From: a virus
Strand: one strand, 5' to 3'
Virus record (IMG/VR): IMGVR_UViG_3300031227_000508
Coordinates: 1-21,494 of that record
Length of the DNA stretch: 21,494 nucleotides
The position numbers and the translations under genes are program-made. A model generated the notes under the pieces. The model had not been told where the DNA came from and did not search any database. It saw only the letters and a list, made by a program, of their open reading frames with translations. Below are positions 6,348 to 21,494 of this stretch, piece by piece; positions within the stretch are counted from its first letter, which is position 1; each line of letters starts with the position of its first letter.

Positions 6348-6663
6348 ACAGATCACACCAGCAGGCAACGGGTCCCGCCCACCCAAAAGCTAAAACCTAA
6401 GTACATGCCCTGCAAAGGCCTTTTCTTACCAGTCCAGCACCTAGTTTAACTAAGTTTTGTGGCGGGGTGCGCACTTCCGCCGCGCACTATCTTCTCGTCT
6501 CGTGGCCATGGGGTCCGGGCGCGGCGGTTGCGCGGGGGCCGGTCGGGGCCGGTCGTGAGGAAATCGCCCGTCCCCGCCCGTCCCCCGCGCGCTGTTGCAA
6601 ACCTGTGGTCGTTTCATCGTGCCTGATCCTCCACGGGGGGAAGTCTGTCTCATTCCGGGAAAA
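6348..6663. other. Gene-free stretch leading into the adenine-poor region
   Basis: No convincing gene is seen. The left part is mixed in composition, with a small palindrome TAGTTTAACTA near 6442-6452. From about 6460 rightward it becomes GC-rich with few A's on the plus strand. Open frames here lack good ribosome sites. It may contain the promoter of a transcript covering 6664-6843, but I could not identify one. Confidence 0.5.
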
Positions 6664-6843
6664 CCTTCCTGGGCGTGGGTCTGTCGCTCTCTCGTCCGGG
6701 TCCCGCGCCGGTGGGGGCTCGGGTCGGCTGCCGGTCGGCCTGGGTCTCGCCGGTGGGGGTTGGCCGGTCCGTGGGGGTCGGGCCTGGGCTTGTCCGGGCT
6801 GGTCCGTGTCGCTGTTGCTCTCCGCGCCGGCGTCGTTGGGGGC
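6664..6843. other. Adenine-free block 1 (180 bases with no A on the plus strand)
   Basis: Direct reading shows no A from 6664 to 6843. The next A (6844) belongs to the repeat-promoter element that starts at 6846. The block is G/C/T only and rich in runs such as GTGGGGG and GGTCGG. Open frames across it follow from the lack of stop codons. It resembles the larger block on the other side of the promoter but is not an obvious copy. Confidence 0.85.
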
Positions 6844-6845
6844 AA

Positions 6846-6900
6846 TGTCATAAAAATGTCATAACTTTGTCAAGATTCTGGGGCTTCCCTGTGGTATCAT
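6846..6900 (+). promoter_or_regulatory. Promoter A with three 11-bp-phased TGTCA repeats
   Basis: TGTCATAA at 6846 and 6857 and TGTCAAGAT at 6868 are spaced exactly 11 bp. A -10 box TATCAT lies at 6895-6900. With a start near 6907 the repeats centre around -61, -50 and -39, typical of an activator or repressor that takes over the -35 role. The same arrangement occurs at 7679-7733. The RNA would start at the first bases of the A-free tract. On the minus strand the repeats also read TTGACA and TTATGACAT, so minus-strand initiation is possible. Confidence 0.6.
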
Positions 6901-7511
6901 TGGGGTGTTCCTTTGGTTGTCCTGGTGGTTTTCCGGGGGGTGTCTCGTGGCTCTTGTTGGGTTCTGCGGTTCTCGTTCTCTCTCCTCCTCTTTCGCCGGC
7001 CTCGTCGGCTCCGTGGTCCGCTCGGTCCTCGCGTTCGGTCGTTCGGTCGCGGTCGGCTGCGCGGCTGGTGGTGATCTCCTTGTCCGTTCGGCGGCTCCCG
7101 GTGCTCGGGTCTTTCGGGTGTCCTCCTTCGCCGGCGGTGGTGGCCCTCCTCGGGCGGCCTTCGTTCGCCGCTCGGTCGCCCTCGTGCGCGCGGTGGCGGC
7201 CTCCGGCGCTGGTGCCGGGTTCGTCGGGTTCGTCGCTGTCGGCTGCCCTCGCTCCGTTGCTCCCTCCGCCTCCCCTTCGCGTTGCTTCTGTGGCGGCGGG
7301 TCCGGCTCGTGGGCCTCGCTCGCCCTCGCTGCCGGCCTTGGGGTGCCGGTGGTGGTGTTTCGCTGCGGTTCGGTCTCCGTCCCTGGCTTCCCCGCCTGCC
7401 CTCTCGGTCTCTCGCTGCCGTCGTGGTGGGGTGGCTCCTGGGCTCCTGCTGCCGCTTCGGGTCCCTGGTCTGGTGGCTTTCGCTGGTCTCCTCCGGCCGG
7501 GTCTGCCGTGC
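6900..7511 (+). other. Adenine-free block 2: putative long noncoding transcript with one A in 612 bases
   Basis: Direct reading gives a single A (7074) between 6900 and 7511; 7075-7511 is 437 bases with none. Only four more A's occur up to 7620. The block starts just past promoter A's -10 box, so the predicted RNA would be almost pure G, C and U. Such an RNA cannot contain AUG, any stop codon or an A-bearing Shine-Dalgarno, so it is effectively untranslatable. The frames open on both strands are products of composition. The minus frame 6848-7684 would give a disordered Arg/Glu/Gly/Pro chain and has no ribosome site. No RNA family is recognised. Near 7578 and 7635 a 14-base repeat, GGCGTGGGTATCGC, marks the 3' end region. 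It could be a structural RNA, an R-loop-forming origin or a DNA element. Confidence 0.5.
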
Positions 7512-7678
7512 AGGGGGCGTTGTTCTAGTGCGCTCCCTTCTGGTTTCCTGGGGGTTCGGTCTGGTGCGGGGTTCCGGCGTGGGTATCGCAGGGGCCGGCC
7601 CTCGTTTTCGTCGGGGCTTCTTCCGCGGTCATGGCGTGGGTATCGCGGAGATCGAAAAAGCATATTCGGCAAACTGAA

Positions 7679-7733
7679 TGTCATAATTATGTCATAAGAA
7701 TGTCAAGATCAGCGGGGAACTAGGTAGTATACT
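7679..7733 (+). promoter_or_regulatory. Promoter B of the early operon, paralogue of promoter A
   Basis: TGTCATAA at 7679 and 7690 and TGTCAAGATC at 7701 (11-bp steps) precede TATACT at 7728-7733, with the same distances as promoter A. GGGG, GTAT and GGGGT positions also match between the two. The -10 lies in a TAGTATACTA palindrome (7725-7734). The predicted start is near 7740, about 40 bases before the J-domain gene. Both promoters are probably controlled by the same protein. Confidence 0.7.
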
Positions 7734-7767
7734 AGGGGTAGAAACACGGGAAACATAGATTAAAAGG

Positions 7768-7779
7768 AGACCCGCCAAA
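7768..7779 (+). promoter_or_regulatory. Translation-start element AGACCCGCCAAA, copy 1 (predicted sRNA target)
   Basis: The 12-mer spans the end of the Shine-Dalgarno, the spacer and the first base of the AUG of the J-domain gene. It is the exact complement of UUUGGCGGGUCU in the predicted sRNA. Identical or near-identical copies occur at 8324-8335 and 8850-8860. Confidence 0.7.
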
Positions 7780-8273
7780 TGTTAGCTTACTTCGCAGGAT
7801 GCACGACCACCGCCAAAGCCAAGAGCCTTTATCGCGAGCTCGCCTTCGCCAACCATCCCGACCTCGGCGGCACTGAGGACGCAATGAAGGCGATCAACGA
7901 GGCTTATCACCAGCTCCTCCACAGCCTGAACGGCGAAACCCTCACCGGCACCGATGGGAAAGAGCACGTCTACCGCTACAGCCATGACGTAGAGCAGGCA
8001 GTAATGGACATGGTCCTAACCCTCGTCGCCCTGAGGATGCCAGCCGTCGAGATCGAGATTATAGGCCAATGGGTATGGGTACGAGGAGACACCCGCCCGC
8101 ACAAAGAGGATCTCAAGGCACTTAAGTGCCGATGGCACAACAAGCGCCAATGCTGGTACTGGCACCGCCCCAGCTATCGCCGAACCTATTCCAATATGTC
8201 CTGGTCTGAAATGCGTTGGGCATTCGGATCCCGGACAGTCGATGAACCAACACCCGCCCACGCATTAACCTAA
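7779..8273 (+). CDS. J-domain (DnaJ-like) protein
   Basis: 164 aa. Residues about 10-50 form a short J domain with the key HPD motif (26-28, in FANHPDLGG) and a following helix EDAMKAINEAYHQLL. The C-terminal half (VEIEIIGQWVWVRGDTRPHKEDLKALKCRWHNKRQCWYWHRP) matches a module often joined to J domains in phage and plasmid proteins. It would recruit the host Hsp70 (DnaK), perhaps to remodel replication complexes. It is the first gene after promoter B. Its ribosome site, AAGGAG, runs into ACCCGCCAAATG, the element repeated at the next two genes and complementary to the predicted sRNA at 13164-13235. Confidence 0.8.
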   Translation: MLAYFAGCTTTAKAKSLYRELAFANHPDLGGTEDAMKAINEAYHQLLHSLNGETLTGTDGKEHVYRYSHDVEQAVMDMVLTLVALRMPAVEIEIIGQWVWVRGDTRPHKEDLKALKCRWHNKRQCWYWHRPSYRRTYSNMSWSEMRWAFGSRTVDEPTPAHALT

Positions 8274-8288
8274 CCCAATATAGTTTAT

Positions 8289-8317
8289 ACCGGGCCTGGT
8301 CGGCGATCAGGCCCGGT
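8289..8317 (+). promoter_or_regulatory. Perfect 10-bp hairpin directly upstream of a ribosome site
   Basis: ACCGGGCCTG and CAGGCCCGGT pair with a 9-base loop. It lacks a U tract and is followed four bases later by the AGGAG of the next gene. It could stabilise a processed mRNA end or act with the start element below it. A very similar hairpin lies before the next gene. Confidence 0.7.
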
Positions 8318-8323
8318 GCAAGG

Positions 8324-8335
8324 AGACCCGCCAAA
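8324..8335 (+). promoter_or_regulatory. Translation-start element AGACCCGCCAAA, copy 2 (predicted sRNA target)
   Basis: Identical to copy 1, with the final A being the A of the ATG at 8335. Perfect 12-bp complement to the predicted sRNA. Confidence 0.7.
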
Positions 8336-8805
8336 TGTCGAACTACAGCTTTGCCGCACAAGTGAACTTTCACACGTGGCACATGGCACGCCTACGAGTG
8401 CCCGCTAACATGCTCGAGCACAGATTGGAATCTACAGCTATAGCAGCAGCAAACGCAATCTTAACAGAACTCGGCATCGAGACCGCGAAAAGCACTTTCT
8501 CGAATCGTTCGACACCGACTCTCTATGCTCTTATCGGGTGGTCCGCACGAGGACCGCACGATCCTTCAGCGACTCGTCAAGTCATCTCGGTATTACGCCA
8601 GAACGAGTGGAAAAATGGCCAGAGGTTGGAGGTGTCCGAATTCTCACGAGAGGCGGAATTGCACGGGTGGGACTACAGGGAGACGGCAGACATAAGCCGT
8701 AATTCACAAGCCGTAAAAACGGCACAGTCCAAAAAGTTTCTACGCGAGGGATCAACCATCAACCACTTTGCAATGATGCTATTCACACGAGGGACAGAAC
8801 ACTAG
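8335..8805 (+). CDS. Early protein of unknown function
   Basis: 156 aa, soluble and mildly basic, with no signal or membrane segment. No family is recognised. The N-terminus (MSNYSFAAQVNFHTWHMARLRVPANMLEHRL) is followed by a helical stretch and a C-terminal half rich in Ser/Arg/Glu. The ATG is chosen because it ends the conserved AAGGAGACCCGCCAAATG leader, which also starts the J-domain gene. The leader and the hairpin before it suggest shared post-transcriptional control with its neighbours. Position between a J-domain protein and a recombination-like protein suggests a role in early replication or takeover, but that is context only. Confidence 0.7.
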   Translation: MSNYSFAAQVNFHTWHMARLRVPANMLEHRLESTAIAAANAILTELGIETAKSTFSNRSTPTLYALIGWSARGPHDPSATRQVISVLRQNEWKNGQRLEVSEFSREAELHGWDYRETADISRNSQAVKTAQSKKFLREGSTINHFAMMLFTRGTEH

Positions 8806-8814
8806 ACACAAAAC

Positions 8815-8843
8815 GCCGGGCCTGATCAGCAGTCAGGCCCGGC
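8815..8843 (+). promoter_or_regulatory. Perfect 11-bp hairpin directly upstream of a ribosome site
   Basis: GCCGGGCCTGA and TCAGGCCCGGC pair with a 7-base loop, three bases before AAGGAG. It shares the GGGCCTG/CAGGCCC core with the hairpin at 8289-8317, so the hairpin plus leader behaves as a repeated cassette. No U tract follows, so it is not a classic terminator. Confidence 0.7.
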
Positions 8844-8849
8844 GAAAGG

Positions 8850-8860
8850 AGACCCGCCAA
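8850..8860 (+). promoter_or_regulatory. Translation-start element AGACCCGCCAA, copy 3 (predicted sRNA target)
   Basis: Eleven of the twelve bases of the element are kept; one A is missing, so the ATG follows directly. It gives 11 bp of pairing with the predicted sRNA. Confidence 0.65.
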
Positions 8861-9516
8861 TGCCTACCGCTACTACGATTCGAATGCTAGAAGGTGGAAT
8901 CTACAACCGAGGAGAGCAATACTCCCAAGACCGTCGATATATCGCCATATCGAAGACAACCGACGACTGGAAACAGATTGAGGAAATAAGGCCAACGCGA
9001 CACAAGCCAATTGACCACTTCATGGTAATGCATACCATACAGGAACGCTACCGGAATTGGATGAGAAACCACGACTACGACAACCCGACCACACAACGGG
9101 TCTTCTCCTCTAACCCGATCGTAAGACTATCAGCACAAGAAGGATGGCACCCGGCAGAGTACAACTATTGGAAAATCGAGACATGGAAAAGCAGTCCTAC
9201 ACAACTTTTACGGATGCTCGTCGAGGAGCTCCATTCATCTACGTCAAACCAAGTGGGCAGCTACTCCACCAGACTCCTGGCAGTACGACCACCGCACGCA
9301 GCATGGCAAATCGCAGACCCGCGCGCCAGCGGATGGGACGCTTTCGCGCACGAGTACGCCAACCTACGAGATCTCGGATGGACCATGAGGAGCAGGCAAA
9401 CCCTAGAACTAGATACCGAATATGGACGAGACAAGACATTGCTTACAGAACTCACGACCAACATCAGGTCGCACTACACCATATACGTTATGAAAAGAAA
9501 GGGAACAAACGAATGA
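8860..9516 (+). CDS. Early protein of unknown function
   Basis: 218 aa, soluble, rich in Arg, Thr and Trp. No family is recognised. Aromatic-rich patches (EYNYWKIETWKSS, HAAWQIADPRASGWDAFAHEY) suggest a compact fold. The ATG follows the third copy of the conserved GGAGACCCGCCAA leader. The stop overlaps the next start in ATGA (9513-9516), so the two are translationally coupled, which hints at a role linked to the Rad52-like protein. Not evidently a copy of the 8335 gene product. Confidence 0.72.
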   Translation: MPTATTIRMLEGGIYNRGEQYSQDRRYIAISKTTDDWKQIEEIRPTRHKPIDHFMVMHTIQERYRNWMRNHDYDNPTTQRVFSSNPIVRLSAQEGWHPAEYNYWKIETWKSSPTQLLRMLVEELHSSTSNQVGSYSTRLLAVRPPHAAWQIADPRASGWDAFAHEYANLRDLGWTMRSRQTLELDTEYGRDKTLLTELTTNIRSHYTIYVMKRKGTNE

Positions 9517-10145
9517 AAGCAGCAGAGATCATCACAGCACTACAAAAACCGACACCAGCAAGCGAGATCCGTTGGCTAACCACCGTCAAGAAAACCGACA
9601 AGTGGATGTGGACAGCTTACATCTCCGGTGATTACATGCGGCGTCAGATCCTCCAGGTATCGCCAGCACACGACATCCGAATCCTCAATACATGGATGGA
9701 TGGCGACTGCAAAATGATAAACGTGGAGATATGCCTGCACGGCGACGACCGCGATATCACAACCGCTGGCATCTCCGGAGTCGAACCGAAGAGGAACGTG
9801 TCCGCAGAGAAGCGATGGAAAGCCGCGAAAACTGGCGCCATGAAAAACGCCATGCTAGAACTCGGCCTGGGACTCGACATCCACAGCCGGAGTAAATGGA
9901 CAAAACCCGACCAGGAACCAAAGCAGAACCAGCGGCCAGCATCAACACCAACGCCAACGCCGGCCACAGCTCCCCGCCCCGAGGTCATCGAGGAACGCGA
10001 AACAATGACATCGACCGAATTCTGGACCGCGATCAGACGCATGAAAATCAGCCAGAGCCTCACGCGGGAAGTCCTGGCGAGGCACAACATGGACTTTACG
10101 GCCGCACTCTCAGAGCTCGCGACACTGGCCCCGCCCGCAGTATAA
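9513..10145 (+). CDS. Probable Rad52/Sak-like single-strand annealing protein
   Basis: 210 aa. The ATG at 9513 overlaps the previous stop. The central part (TAYISGDYMRRQILQVSPAHDIRILNTW, then NVSAEKRWKAAKTGAMKNAMLELGLGLDI) resembles the Rad52-family core. In these proteins a helix with 'A.K.A.T.A.K.A....G.G' follows the beta sheet that binds single-stranded DNA. A Pro/Thr linker (about 137-155) leads to a small helical tail (TSTEFWTAIRRMKISQSLTREVLARH), which in such proteins often binds partners. It would anneal complementary strands during phage recombination or replication. The family call is by motif only; ERF-type or an unrelated replication protein is possible. Confidence 0.5.
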   Translation: MKAAEIITALQKPTPASEIRWLTTVKKTDKWMWTAYISGDYMRRQILQVSPAHDIRILNTWMDGDCKMINVEICLHGDDRDITTAGISGVEPKRNVSAEKRWKAAKTGAMKNAMLELGLGLDIHSRSKWTKPDQEPKQNQRPASTPTPTPATAPRPEVIEERETMTSTEFWTAIRRMKISQSLTREVLARHNMDFTAALSELATLAPPAV

Positions 10146-10194: not shown

Positions 10195-10545
10195 ATGTCA
10201 CCACGAGACACAAAGTCGATCTACGTCAAGCCAGAGACACACAAACGAGCCAAACTGCTAGCAGTCGAACTCAGCATCACCCTTGACGACGTGATCACCC
10301 ACGCACTGGATGCCCTCGAGGGCCAGATCCTCAGCGACAGCCTGAGCCGTGAACAACGTCAAACGATCGTACGTCAGATCGTCGGAAACACAGCAGCTAG
10401 GCTCCATGATCAGCTACTCGCAATCAAGAGCCCGCGCGAACGCCGGCAGAAACTACACGAGGAAATTATCCGCGCGGCCGGCGAACAACTCGGCACAGAC
10501 GACCGAGTCCTGGTCCGAAAGTTCGTAGATAAGCTCATCAGCTAA
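10195..10545 (+). CDS. Ribbon-helix-helix DNA-binding protein
   Basis: 116 aa. The N-terminus has a CopG/Arc-like pattern: short beta strand TKSIYVKPETHKRAKLLAVE, then the helices ELSITLDDVITHALDALEGQIL. The C-terminal 70 residues are helical and charged, probably for oligomerisation. The ATG follows GGAGAAAGG. RHH proteins bind repeated short operators, so the 11-bp repeats at promoters A and B or the palindrome at the promoter just downstream are candidate targets. It could regulate the lysis-lysogeny switch or copy number, or be a partition-type protein; that is inference. Confidence 0.65.
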   Translation: MSPRDTKSIYVKPETHKRAKLLAVELSITLDDVITHALDALEGQILSDSLSREQRQTIVRQIVGNTAARLHDQLLAIKSPRERRQKLHEEIIRAAGEQLGTDDRVLVRKFVDKLIS

Positions 10546-10551
10546 GCCCCC

Positions 10552-10586
10552 TTGACACCACCCTGCCAGTATGGTATACTATACCA
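10552..10586 (+). promoter_or_regulatory. Strong sigma70 promoter with palindromic operator
   Basis: TTGACA (10552-10557), a 17-bp spacer and TATACT (10575-10580). The -10 is inside the palindrome TGGTATACTATACCA (10572-10586). The bases TATACCAAACTATACT that follow recur as TATACCAAAGTATACT in the sRNA promoter at 13245-13260. It would drive the small membrane gene and the excisionase-like gene. Confidence 0.75.
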
Positions 10587-10610
10587 AACTATACTAACCA
10601 CAGGGACGCT

Positions 10611-10983: not shown

Positions 10984-11027
10984 CTGGGGGGCAGGGATTC
11001 GAACCCCGGTTAGCTGATACAGAGTAA
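10984..11027 (-). other. attP core: 3' end of a tRNA gene
   Basis: On the minus strand, CGGGG-TTCGAAT-CCCTG (11008-10992) is a T arm and CCCCCCAG (10991-10984) an acceptor end with discriminator G. Upstream bases include CAGCTAACC. No full tRNA is present, so this is the phage half that would restore a host tRNA after integration. It lies immediately downstream of the integrase stop. The U1-A72/G73 ends implied are like tRNA-Gln, but identity is not secure. The exact crossover length is unknown. Confidence 0.75.
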
Positions 11028-12053: not shown

Positions 12054-12284
12054 ATGTTCAAATGCACCTTCTGCAGCAGGTCAGTATCACACATCGGAGA
12101 GAACGCAGTCCAGACCGGCTGGGGACGACTAGTAATGGGCAAAGGAGGCTGGCCCAAAAAAATCACCGTAGTTCATTGCCCTGATCACGTCGAAGAATAC
12201 GTCGACCTCGTGATCAGTCTCGCCCAGTCGCCGAGCGTAAAAGCAGCAAAACACCTCATCCAGGAGGCACAGCGTGACCGATAG
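12054..12284 (+). CDS. Small zinc-ribbon protein
   Basis: 76 aa. MFKCTFCSRS and VVHCPDH give a C-x2-C and a C-x2-H pair, a likely single zinc site, with a helical tail YVDLVISLAQSPSVKAAKHLIQEAQ. The ATG is nine bases after AAGGAG. Its last bases contain the ribosome site of the initiator gene, and the two overlap by 11 bases, so it is probably co-translated with it. Such small zinc proteins often assist replication or regulation, but the function is unknown. Confidence 0.68.
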   Translation: MFKCTFCSRSVSHIGENAVQTGWGRLVMGKGGWPKKITVVHCPDHVEEYVDLVISLAQSPSVKAAKHLIQEAQRDR

Positions 12285-13164
12285 TGAAACAAAACTCTTG
12301 CCCAGCAGCGATACATTCGTAGTAGATGGAATCGAAATAGACCCAACCCGCGACGGGTTTACATTCGTAGAATCTTACGGCTTGTATTTCTGGATGCCCC
12401 TTCTGGGAGTCAGGACATACGCCACATGGCTACTTCTCAAGTCGTTCTGTTGGGGATCTCGCACAAAATCATGGCCATCCATCAGCCGGCTAAGTCGCAT
12501 CCTATCCAACGGCCCCAACGCCAGAAACACCATTGCCGGCAGAGCCGGCCACCCAGGCACACTTGACCACTTGATAGAGGAGAGGATCATCTACACCACC
12601 ACTGAAGGTGACGGCCCAACCACCAAGCACACCTACCACGTGCTCCGGGTTCTACCGCTCCTAACACCAGAGCAACTAGCAAAGCTCACGCCAGCCCTGC
12701 AGCGAGATCATCGCTTGTTCCTCCAGCATTACCGGATTTCGCACCAACACTACCTGGAGGCAGTCTATGGAATCGACGACGACCCTGGTGCACCCAGCAC
12801 CACCCCCTGGTGCGCCCAGCAGCAGGGGGTGGGTACAGACGCAGCACGGGGTGCTGCGCCCAGCAGCACGAATCAACACAAAGAATCATCACAAAAAGCA
12901 GAAACAAAGAATCTTCCTGACTGGCCACAAATTTTAGTCGCGCTCGAGTTGAAGTTCCCAAAAGCCACTTACGACATGTGGCTCAAACACACGCGAGCCC
13001 TGGCATTGGATCAGAGCGGATTGCTCACTGTCAGTGTCACCAACCGATATGCAGCAGAGTGGCTACATCATCGGCTAAATCATATCATCCTAGACACCAT
13101 TCAAAAACATGCGCCACATGTGACCGCGATCCGATACATCGAAGAGCAACAGGAGCTATTCTGA
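12274..13164 (+). CDS. Replication initiator-like protein with winged helix and DnaA domain-I-like C-terminus
   Basis: 296 aa from GTG 12274 (AGGAGGCACAGC leader). Residues about 35-130 (YGLYFWMPLLGVRTYATWLLLKSF, then SWPSISRLSRILSNGPNARNT) look like a winged-helix domain used by phage and plasmid initiators. After a Gln/Ser/Ala-rich linker (170-212), residues about 217-290 (WPQILVALELKFPKATYDMWLKHTRALAL, then LLTVSVTNRYAAEWLHHRLNHII) match the N-terminal domain of DnaA, which recruits the helicase and binds partners. No AAA+ ATPase is present. It probably binds the phage origin and loads the host helicase. Its stop is at the 3' end of the antisense sRNA terminator. Confidence 0.72.
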   Translation: MTDSETKLLPSSDTFVVDGIEIDPTRDGFTFVESYGLYFWMPLLGVRTYATWLLLKSFCWGSRTKSWPSISRLSRILSNGPNARNTIAGRAGHPGTLDHLIEERIIYTTTEGDGPTTKHTYHVLRVLPLLTPEQLAKLTPALQRDHRLFLQHYRISHQHYLEAVYGIDDDPGAPSTTPWCAQQQGVGTDAARGAAPSSTNQHKESSQKAETKNLPDWPQILVALELKFPKATYDMWLKHTRALALDQSGLLTVSVTNRYAAEWLHHRLNHIILDTIQKHAPHVTAIRYIEEQQELF

Positions 13165-13207
13165 AAAAGAGCGAGGCCCCCGAGCTGAGCGCCCAGGAAG
13201 CCCCGCT
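13163..13207 (-). terminator. Intrinsic terminator of the predicted sRNA
   Basis: AGCGGGGCTTCC pairs with GGGGGCCTCGCT, with an inner GGGC/GCUC pairing in the loop, then CTTTTTC on the minus strand. On the plus strand no T run follows, so it is directional. It begins right at the stop codon of the initiator gene. Confidence 0.8.
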
Positions 13208-13235
13208 TAATCCGTGTAGACCCGCCAAAGTCTAC
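13164..13235 (-). ncRNA. Predicted antisense sRNA targeting three early translation starts
   Basis: A promoter (13242-13270) points leftward. The RNA would begin at about 13235 with a perfect hairpin, GUAGAC (13235-13230), loop UUUGGCGG, GUCUAC (13221-13216). A 12-bp terminator stem (13207-13196 with 13181-13170, three G-U pairs) and UUUUU (13168-13164) end it after about 72 nt. The loop and upper stem, UUUGGCGGGUCU, are the exact complement of AGACCCGCCAAA overlapping the ribosome sites and AUGs at 7779 and 8335, and match 11 of 12 at 8860. Pairing would block ribosome loading. The gene is antisense only to a gap, so it acts in trans. Homologues are not known to me. Confidence 0.7.
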
Positions 13236-13241
13236 GCGACC

Positions 13242-13270
13242 ATTATACCAAAGTATACTCACAATGTCAA
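13242..13270 (-). promoter_or_regulatory. Consensus sigma70 promoter of the predicted sRNA
   Basis: Minus strand TTGACA (13270-13265), 17-bp spacer, TATAAT (13247-13242): both boxes are perfect. TATACCAAAGTATACT on the plus strand (13245-13260) matches the operator region of the promoter at 10552 at 15 of 16 bases, suggesting common repression. Confidence 0.85.
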
Positions 13271-13394
13271 TCTCGCACTTAGAGACGTTCTAACGCACAA
13301 ATCGAGCACTTAGGTATTACCATATATCTTTGTGGCTACAAAACACACTAGCACGCACGTTCTATCACGCTAGAGCACAATCCTGGAGCCCGCC

Positions 13395-14063
13395 ATGCGG
13401 TACACTCGACGCCAGCCTACTTTCTCTGAGAATCTCGTGCCAGATCCGGTCAAAACCCCAATCGTTTTGCCATATATCCAGACGCTACTCGGATCTATCG
13501 TTTTCTCTGTCGCATCCGGCGCGATCCTCGCCGCTCTGGAAGTTATCCCACTTACCAGCTACGCCCCAGCAGCCGTCGTCATCACTTTCACACCAATAAG
13601 CCTCCTGGCAATGAGAAACGTTGTCAGCGCCTTCGTAGTCACGCATATCGAAACCAAGCTAATCCGCATGCGCGCCGAATACGCCCAGCAAACCATTGCC
13701 TACCGTGACACTACCCTCGACGAGATCATCCCTCGCGATCCTACAACGCCGGCAATGGCCATCGATGACCGTACAATCATCAACAACCGCACTGGACCAC
13801 GGTCCGACGAACAAATCTATCGCCAGGATTTACGTGAGTTCGCCCTCGATATTTGGCGCAAGGGAGGAGTAACCTCGAGAGATCAATTCCTGCAGCCTGG
13901 AAATCACTACCGATTTGCATCAGGCACCATCATGACACGCGCACTATATGAGCGGATGAAAGACGACCTGGTCAAATCCAACCACGCAGCAACACGACCA
14001 GACGGAGGCTGGATCCTAGTGAGCACACCGGCAACCATCCGCCAGTCGATCAAGACCCTATGA
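13395..14063 (+). CDS. Membrane protein with cytoplasmic C-terminal domain
   Basis: 222 aa. Two membrane segments close together (IVLPYIQTLLGSIVFSVASGAILAAL about 23-48 and SYAPAAVVITFTPISLLAM about 55-73), then a long soluble part. The C-terminal 100 residues (EQIYRQDLREFALDIWRKGGVTSRDQFLQ, then GTIMTRALYERMKDDLVKSN) have a winged-helix feel. The ATG follows GGAG by six bases (GGAGCCCGCCATG), weakly like the sRNA target. No family is recognised. A membrane-anchored DNA-binding protein for replication or regulation is one possibility. Its stop overlaps a small ORF (ATGA). Confidence 0.65.
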   Translation: MRYTRRQPTFSENLVPDPVKTPIVLPYIQTLLGSIVFSVASGAILAALEVIPLTSYAPAAVVITFTPISLLAMRNVVSAFVVTHIETKLIRMRAEYAQQTIAYRDTTLDEIIPRDPTTPAMAIDDRTIINNRTGPRSDEQIYRQDLREFALDIWRKGGVTSRDQFLQPGNHYRFASGTIMTRALYERMKDDLVKSNHAATRPDGGWILVSTPATIRQSIKTL

Positions 14064-20766: not shown

Positions 20767-21494
20767 TTACGCCACGTTGTTCTTATGCAACGCTCGCCAG
20801 TCACCGATCCCAACAGCATAGAAGAACCGCACCTTGATCCTCATCTCGTCATTGGTGAACATGCTACCAACAACATCAGAGTCAGCTACGAACATCTCAG
20901 GAGCTCGACCAAACCGATAGCCAACGCACACGCCCGGAAGGTCCAACGGACTGGCACACGCAGCCCAGTTGTTGGTATCCGTCCACTCCGGCACTGCTAT
21001 GACGTGCGCACTACCTTGCCGCACGTTCACATCGTTGTCGCCAGTCCCAGGTTCAAGAGGCGAATTGATGATTGTCAACGCCGTCTTTTCCAACTCGATG
21101 GGAACCAAGATTGTAGCCGGCCGTACTCCCATCCTCTTGCTACTCGTCACCTCCGCCTGCTTGAACATAGCCTGGATCACCGCATCCCATGCAGTCGTGC
21201 TCAGCGCCGCAGTGAGTAGGTTGTTGTGAGTACCCGAGTGGAACAGAGCAACCGCATCAGCCAAATCTGGCCCTGTACCTGCCTGGGCTGTGAAGAGAGC
21301 CGCTATGGCAGCGCTCAAAGTACGAGCGGCAGCCAGGCCCATCTTCTGGGGCAACTGCTTCACCGCTCCAACGTTATCGCGGTCTATCATCTCCAGCGTG
21401 ATACCAACGTAGTTACCCTTCTTGATAAAGGTACTCGTCTCTTCGTTGTCACTCCACGCCTTCTCAGTGTAAGCAGCCCCTTCCGTCACCGTGT
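20767..21494 (-). CDS. Fused prohead protease-major capsid protein, C-terminal part (gene split by the window ends)
   Basis: This is the C-terminal part of the protein that begins at 1424. The reading frame enters at 21494 and ends at TAA 20767-20769. The sequence has capsid-like character: NYVGITLEMIDRDNVGAVKQ, ARTLSAAIAALFTAQAG, ILVPIELEKTALTI and a C-terminal FFYAVGIGDWRALHKNN resemble Mu-type or related phage major head subunits. The segment at 21350-21494 repeats the first 145 bases of the window, so it appears twice on the linear sequence but once on the circle. The holin-like gene follows 96 bases downstream. There is no frameshift or stop at the junction. Confidence 0.85.
   Translation of the reverse strand, partial: TVTEGAAYTEKAWSDNEETSTFIKKGNYVGITLEMIDRDNVGAVKQLPQKMGLAAARTLSAAIAALFTAQAGTGPDLADAVALFHSGTHNNLLTAALSTTAWDAVIQAMFKQAEVTSSKRMGVRPATILVPIELEKTALTIINSPLEPGTGDNDVNVRQGSAHVIAVPEWTDTNNWAACASPLDLPGVCVGYRFGRAPEMFVADSDVVGSMFTNDEMRIKVRFFYAVGIGDWRALHKNNVA
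21350..21494. repeat. Terminal direct repeat, right copy
   Basis: This is the right-hand copy of the 145-base terminal overlap. Both differences from the left copy are synonymous in the capsid reading frame, as expected of two real variants rather than random sequencing error. Confidence 0.9.

Follow-up and report, generated by a model that had tools for sequence, protein, structure and literature searches.

The window, that is, the whole 21,494-base stretch of viral DNA analysed here, probably carries on its minus strand a gene for a ~73-nt trans-acting antisense RNA that would block the start of translation in the early operon of the phage. The RNA would be transcribed from a minus-strand promoter, and its single recognition hairpin would pair loop-first, through a UUGG of the YUNR type, with unstructured leaders. 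In each case the pairing site would be the same C-rich leader, ACCCGCC, which lies between the Shine-Dalgarno sequence and the AUG of J, g2 and g3; these three genes appear to open the early operon, and gene 13395 would perhaps be weakly hit as well. Once paired, the RNA would hide the ribosome site, block ribosome binding and repress translation. An earlier note on this DNA had proposed a complete RNA gene directed at three ribosome-binding sites; this still accounts best for the sequence, and no database family gives a better account of the locus, while the shut-down of the targets, also proposed there, is a step that we infer.

Because 143 of 145 bases agree where the two ends of the record (1-145 and 21350-21494) overlap, the genome is, as judged from this overlap, complete and terminally redundant or circular, at ~21.35 kb; the two end copies differ slightly in the assembled record. 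The late genes (TerL, portal, capsid, tail, holin) lie on the minus strand and the early block on the plus strand, in the order J (7779), g2 (8335), g3 (8860), a Rad52-like gene (9513), a ribbon-helix-helix (RHH)-like gene (10195) and an excisionase-like HTH gene (10726), beyond which come a tyrosine integrase gene (minus) and then, at 12274 (plus), a replication gene with a DnaA N-terminal domain. A Rep with a C-terminal DnaA N-domain is common to many elements of the Anaerolineae class (L035-L043, L021), often with its gene directly before a tail gene; the Rep and tail genes of the window are on opposite strands. A G+C-rich tract (6459-7684; ~1 kb at 70% G+C) separates the terminase genes from the early operon; its plus strand is almost free of A (AT skew -0.77), and it has low-complexity long frames on both strands, of which the 278-aa minus-strand frame has no family match. 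A tRNA T-arm-like stretch at 10988-11012, GGCAGGGATTCGAACCCC, adjoins the integrase gene and is possibly attP; ARAGORN found no full tRNA there. A relative of TerL occurs in an Anaerolineales assembly, and relatives of Rep occur in genomes of the class; both point to Anaerolineae-type bacteria as the host.

Promoter, hairpin and terminator of the predicted RNA

The promoter of the RNA, described in the earlier note as a perfect minus-strand one, does match the consensus at every position, and it is the sole perfect TTGACA-N16-18-TATAAT in the whole window, where 0.01 would be expected. The RNA is predicted to start near 13236, and the hairpin begins six bases past the promoter. The predicted length is close to the ~72 nt given before, and the whole predicted RNA folds at -37 to -38 kcal/mol (z = -4.7). 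The 5' hairpin with its 6-bp stem is present at 13235-13216; the folding program extends it by two weak G.U pairs, and its loop contains UUGG, a fit to the YUNR U-turn motif as defined previously (PMC4485353). Nine bases (13215-13207) link this hairpin to the terminator, for which a 12-bp stem followed by five U's had been claimed. The terminator is there, with UCUUUUU next to it, and its stem is stronger than claimed (13206-13171; 9+7 bp with one bulge). Every element named in the earlier note was found in its place.

Table 1. Coordinates of the predicted RNA gene, its candidate target leaders and the genes and control sequences discussed with them (positions in the window)
Feature	Position	Strand	Basis or remark
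Leader 1, AAGGAGACCCGCCAAATG, J-domain-like gene	7764..7781	+	12 nt predicted to pair with RNA
J, DnaJ-like gene	7779..8273	+	phrog_15863 E 3e-37; Pfam DnaJ E 0.003, below cut-off
Hairpin just 5' of leader 2	8290..8316	+	folds; no U-tract, plus strand; repeat D1, 87% to 8816-8860
Leader 2, AAGGAGACCCGCCAAATG, g2	8320..8337	+	12 nt predicted to pair with RNA
g2, no assigned function	8335..8805	+	
Hairpin just 5' of leader 3	8814..8844	+	folds
Leader 3, AAGGAGACCCGCCAATG, g3	8846..8862	+	11 nt predicted to pair, with extra pairs beyond AUG
g3, no assigned function	8860..9516	+	
Rad52-like gene	9513..10145	+	Pfam Rad52 E 0.003, below cut-off; ATG overlaps g3 stop (ATGA)
Ribbon-helix-helix-like gene	10195..10545	+	Pfam RHH E 0.014, below cut-off; candidate repressor
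Promoter TTGACA-17-TATACT with shared operator-like sequence	10552..10595	+	11/12 consensus
Replication-initiator-like gene	12274..13164	+	Pfam DnaA_N 2e-9; phrog_26369 1e-9; convergent with RNA gene
Antisense RNA, predicted ~73 nt	13164..13236	-	promoter spacing and fold
Intrinsic terminator hairpin and UCUUUUU tail	13165..13206	-	fold
5' recognition hairpin GUAGAC-UUUGGCGG-GUCUAC	13216..13235	-	fold and complementarity
Small RNA promoter TTGACA-17-TATAAT	13242..13270	-	12/12 consensus; TTGACA 13270-13265, 17-nt spacer, TATAAT 13247-13242
Operator-like sequence TATACCAAAGTATACT	13244..13259	+	overlaps -10 and spacer of RNA promoter
Probable weak fourth leader, GGAGCCCGCCATG, gene 13395	13385..13397	+	CCCGCCA predicted to pair with loop core

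Loop, leaders and controls for chance

The element AGACCCGCCAAA occurs exactly at 7768-7779, 8324-8335 and 13218-13229, and at 11 of 12 positions at 8850-8861. Sequence comparison confirmed that the hairpin loop region is antisense to it over 12 nt where J (7779) and g2 (8335) start and over 11 nt (8850-8860) where g3 (8860) does. Each of the three leaders is matched from the AG of its Shine-Dalgarno sequence, GGAG, through the A of AUG, which bears out the overlap with the Shine-Dalgarno end and the start codon reported before, and at g3 the one missing base is compensated by additional pairing beyond the start codon. The motif GGAG-N0-2-CCCGCC has four occurrences in the genome, every one just 5' of an ATG (J, g2, g3 and gene 13395), and the core common to the four leaders is the part read by the loop. 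The leader of gene 13395 is perhaps, and from its sequence probably, a weak fourth target; as a full target it was downgraded, 46 of 300 shuffled loops binding there as well as the real one. In the folds, the hairpins upstream of g2 and g3 leave the leader single-stranded.

Several controls show that this complementarity is greater than chance provides. A 12-nt antisense run to the J, g2 and g3 leaders arose in 6 of 20,000 dinucleotide shuffles of the 73-nt RNA, and when duplexes were ranked over 10,736 windows on both strands as distinct sites, g2 came second, g3 third and J fifth, the first place genome-wide going to the RNA's own complement. The predicted structure-aware binding gain was -6.6 kcal/mol at J (a value that varies with the flank length folded, from -14.4 to -6.4) and, with the upstream hairpins intact, -16.4 at g2 and -17.0 at g3 (-5.7 when the g3 hairpin was truncated). 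For 300 shuffled loops the mean gains were -0.6, -4.8 and -6.9 kcal/mol, and the real gain was matched by one shuffled loop at J and by none at g2 or g3. A scan of 27 records (336 kb) covered 189 terminator-like sites, and this hairpin alone matched three leaders; the terminator-site scan found no three-leader hairpin in the eight viral contigs that carry GGAGACCCGCCAAATG. The locus resembles a trans-acting base-pairing small RNA in this excess of complementarity to target start regions and in having its own promoter and terminator, with targets 4.4-5.5 kb away. Against the antisense reading, pairing requires the 6-bp stem to open, and possible start codons are also found at some of the GGAGACCCGCCAAATG sites of unrelated viral contigs. 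A 14-nt match in L004 (apparently coding) and the sole exact hairpin match in viral contigs (L044, inside a coding frame) were set aside as chance.

Relatives were sought among viral contigs with the J, g3, Rad52-like, Rep and tail proteins and among genome contigs with Rep and a TerL alignment. No relative with the early module of loop and leaders was found in either set, and the leader-loop match is, by these searches, a feature resting on one genome. The TerL alignment search yielded a relative at 48%, from an Anaerolineales assembly (L024), without this early region, and TerL relatives at 84-100% were fragments that do not reach the early region or have other DNA there. Neither the relatives of J (30-46%) nor those of Rep (about 28-40%) had the element. 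Two of the TerL relatives (L015 494-2797, L022 514-2814) encode a similar ~766-aa repeat protein with a Pro/Thr-rich tail, 5' of the small terminase gene, where the phage has its early region; this may be host flank or a cargo gene. Weak short DNA matches to mycobacteriophages, Ensifer plasmids and Anaerolineae genomes fell mostly within the GC-rich terminator; Rfam identified no ctRNA at the matched Ensifer locus.

The searches did return distant J operons in Anaerolineae-class genomes, L052 (8095-9460) and L053 (9480-10083), with repeated intergenic hairpins immediately 5' of the ribosome sites of early genes (GAACGGCCGTTC pairs; CCCCGCCGGTCGG...AAGGCCGGCA), each with its own, unrelated sequence. 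Judging by these operons, such hairpins are a wider habit of the elements and partly explain the recurrence of the leaders. It is unlikely, even so, that the leaders are a duplicated ribosome-site cassette to which the hairpin owes its match by coincidence or as a stray copy, the RNA, if made, doing something else. The L052 and L053 hairpins fit such an origin, as does the 45-nt block of hairpin plus leader duplicated between g2 and g3, but J has the leader without the upstream hairpin, the further copy of the 12-mer sits in the hairpin loop of a unit with the only perfect promoter of the genome, and shuffled RNAs match the leaders equally well as rarely as reported above.

Known antisense RNAs and the local surroundings

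No Rfam family reached threshold for the RNA, and the C4-type model gave no match even at E up to 10. The nearest family was ctRNA_p42d, at 23.7 bits against a gathering score of 50 and over the terminator only (E-value 0.003 for 181 bases, 0.96 for 59 kb). The faint likeness raises the question of a local role, in which a plasmid-type counter-transcribed RNA would control the adjacent rep or read-through into gene 13395 and the leader matches would be secondary. The position of the RNA gene, on the opposite strand between rep (end 13164) and gene 13395, would suit this, as would its perfect complementarity, over its whole length, to a read-through transcript into gene 13395 and the related leader carried by that gene. 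A local role is nonetheless quite improbable: the RNA gene lies downstream of rep and is no counter-transcript of the rep leader; unlike plasmid ctRNAs, it does not overlap the rep start; binding to the rep leader has a predicted gain of no more than about -4 kcal/mol; the Rfam resemblance stops at the terminator; and the three distant 11-12-nt leader matches are left unexplained. Least probable is a translational repressor protein that would bind AGACCCGCCAAA in the leaders and in a plus-strand hairpin copy (13216-13235, loop CCGCCAAA), for although that copy has the very sequence of the leaders and lies in the loop of a perfect hairpin, the J, g2 and g3 leaders do not fold into such a hairpin, and both the perfect promoter and the terminator are oriented for the minus strand.

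The antisense RNA that we favour most likely works like c4, P4 CI and plasmid antisense RNAs, as far as sequence can tell, and is a member of no family tested. The c4 RNA is encoded within the leader of the operon that it controls. The P4 CI RNA is likewise encoded within the leader of its operon (PMC4825925), whereas the phage RNA would start from a promoter of its own, ~4.4-5.5 kb away from the leaders. In P1/P7 c4, loops with complementary sequences pair around the ribosome-binding site, block translation and give immunity (PMC12197685). The phage RNA would share this kind of pairing, but c4 controls the antirepressor (ant) message, and the RNA described here has a distant promoter of its own and three matching leaders. 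P4 CI RNA pairs with two complementary sites and keeps the replication genes off in lysogens (PMC4825925), and so is likewise one phage RNA with more than one complementary site. It differs in being processed from the controlled transcript and in terminating transcription, at seqA/seqC, where the RNA of the window would act as a primary transcript on translation starts.

In P22, sar overlaps its single target, ant, and the RHH repressors Arc and Mnt are nearby. As an antisense RNA that blocks translation initiation of a phage gene (PMC12197685), sar is comparable in mode and, with an RHH-like gene in the window, in setting, but the targets of the phage RNA are distant and several. The CopG protein of plasmid pMV158 is also an RHH repressor. 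Its companion RNAII, a small RNA of simple hairpin architecture, controls the replicon (PMC4485353); the combination is like that found here, except that RNAII is a cis counter-transcript of repB mRNA, while the phage RNA would pair in trans and has no overlap with the rep start. In IS10, the loop of the stable RNA-OUT pairs with the ribosome site of the RNA-IN message, which, in contrast to the leaders considered here, is a single target overlapping the RNA gene. To our knowledge, most antisense RNAs reported from phages to date have a single target, as a rule one that they overlap or adjoin. The novelty claimed in the earlier note holds in part: antisense block of phage translation starts was already known, and the use on several cistrons through one repeated leader is unusual.

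Proposed control of the RNA and its possible role in the phage

The earlier note had the RNA act on several phage mRNAs. Since no promoter-like site was found before g2 or g3, however, the three target genes appear to form a single operon. The Rad52-like gene is probably translationally coupled to g3, because its ATG overlaps the g3 stop, and it would fall together with g3. A block at the J, g2 and g3 starts could, through this overlap, silence four genes. Early or replication functions might in this way be kept low in the prophage, or be timed during infection.

The RNA promoter and the 10552 promoter share an operator-like 16-mer, TATACCAAA[G/C]TATACT, which in its copy at the RNA promoter contains the inverted repeat TATAC-CAAA-GTATA; the second copy (10580-10595) has one G/C difference. 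The two are the only matches in the window at up to three mismatches, and none of 100 shuffles has two. This shared sequence suggests common transcriptional control of both promoters, on which a candidate repressor, possibly the RHH-like protein, may act. A single-sequence model of that protein is of low confidence and has two helices (13-26 and 30-42); its gene has an unrelated ribosome site without the leader element. No CI-like repressor was recognised among the ~20 proteins of the genome that were scanned, which leaves room for an RNA-based switch and is no proof of one. In a more speculative and rather unlikely extension, the RNA, rather than a CI-type protein, would be the main early-gene switch: it would silence J, g2 and g3 through the repeated leader, and with them the coupled Rad52-like gene, while the RHH-like protein, encoded at the end of the same operon behind a ribosome site that would escape the RNA, would repress the RNA promoter. 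An Anaerolineae phage would then have a double-negative switch between lysis and lysogeny.

What is new is the combination of a stand-alone RNA with several early-operon cistrons tagged by one short leader. No earlier report of a regulatory RNA for an Anaerolineae phage was found in the openly accessible literature, and this is apparently the first one proposed. Hfq scored above cut-off in 2 of 100 genomes of the Anaerolineae class; with Hfq this rare in the class, pairing of the predicted RNA may not need it, and a mostly Hfq-poor host class would make the RNA a case of chaperone-independent pairing. The recognition element, at 9-12 nt, is short enough for testing and reuse by simple reporter swaps. 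If true, a stand-alone RNA that reads one short leader before several early cistrons would amount to a compact translational switch for the whole operon.
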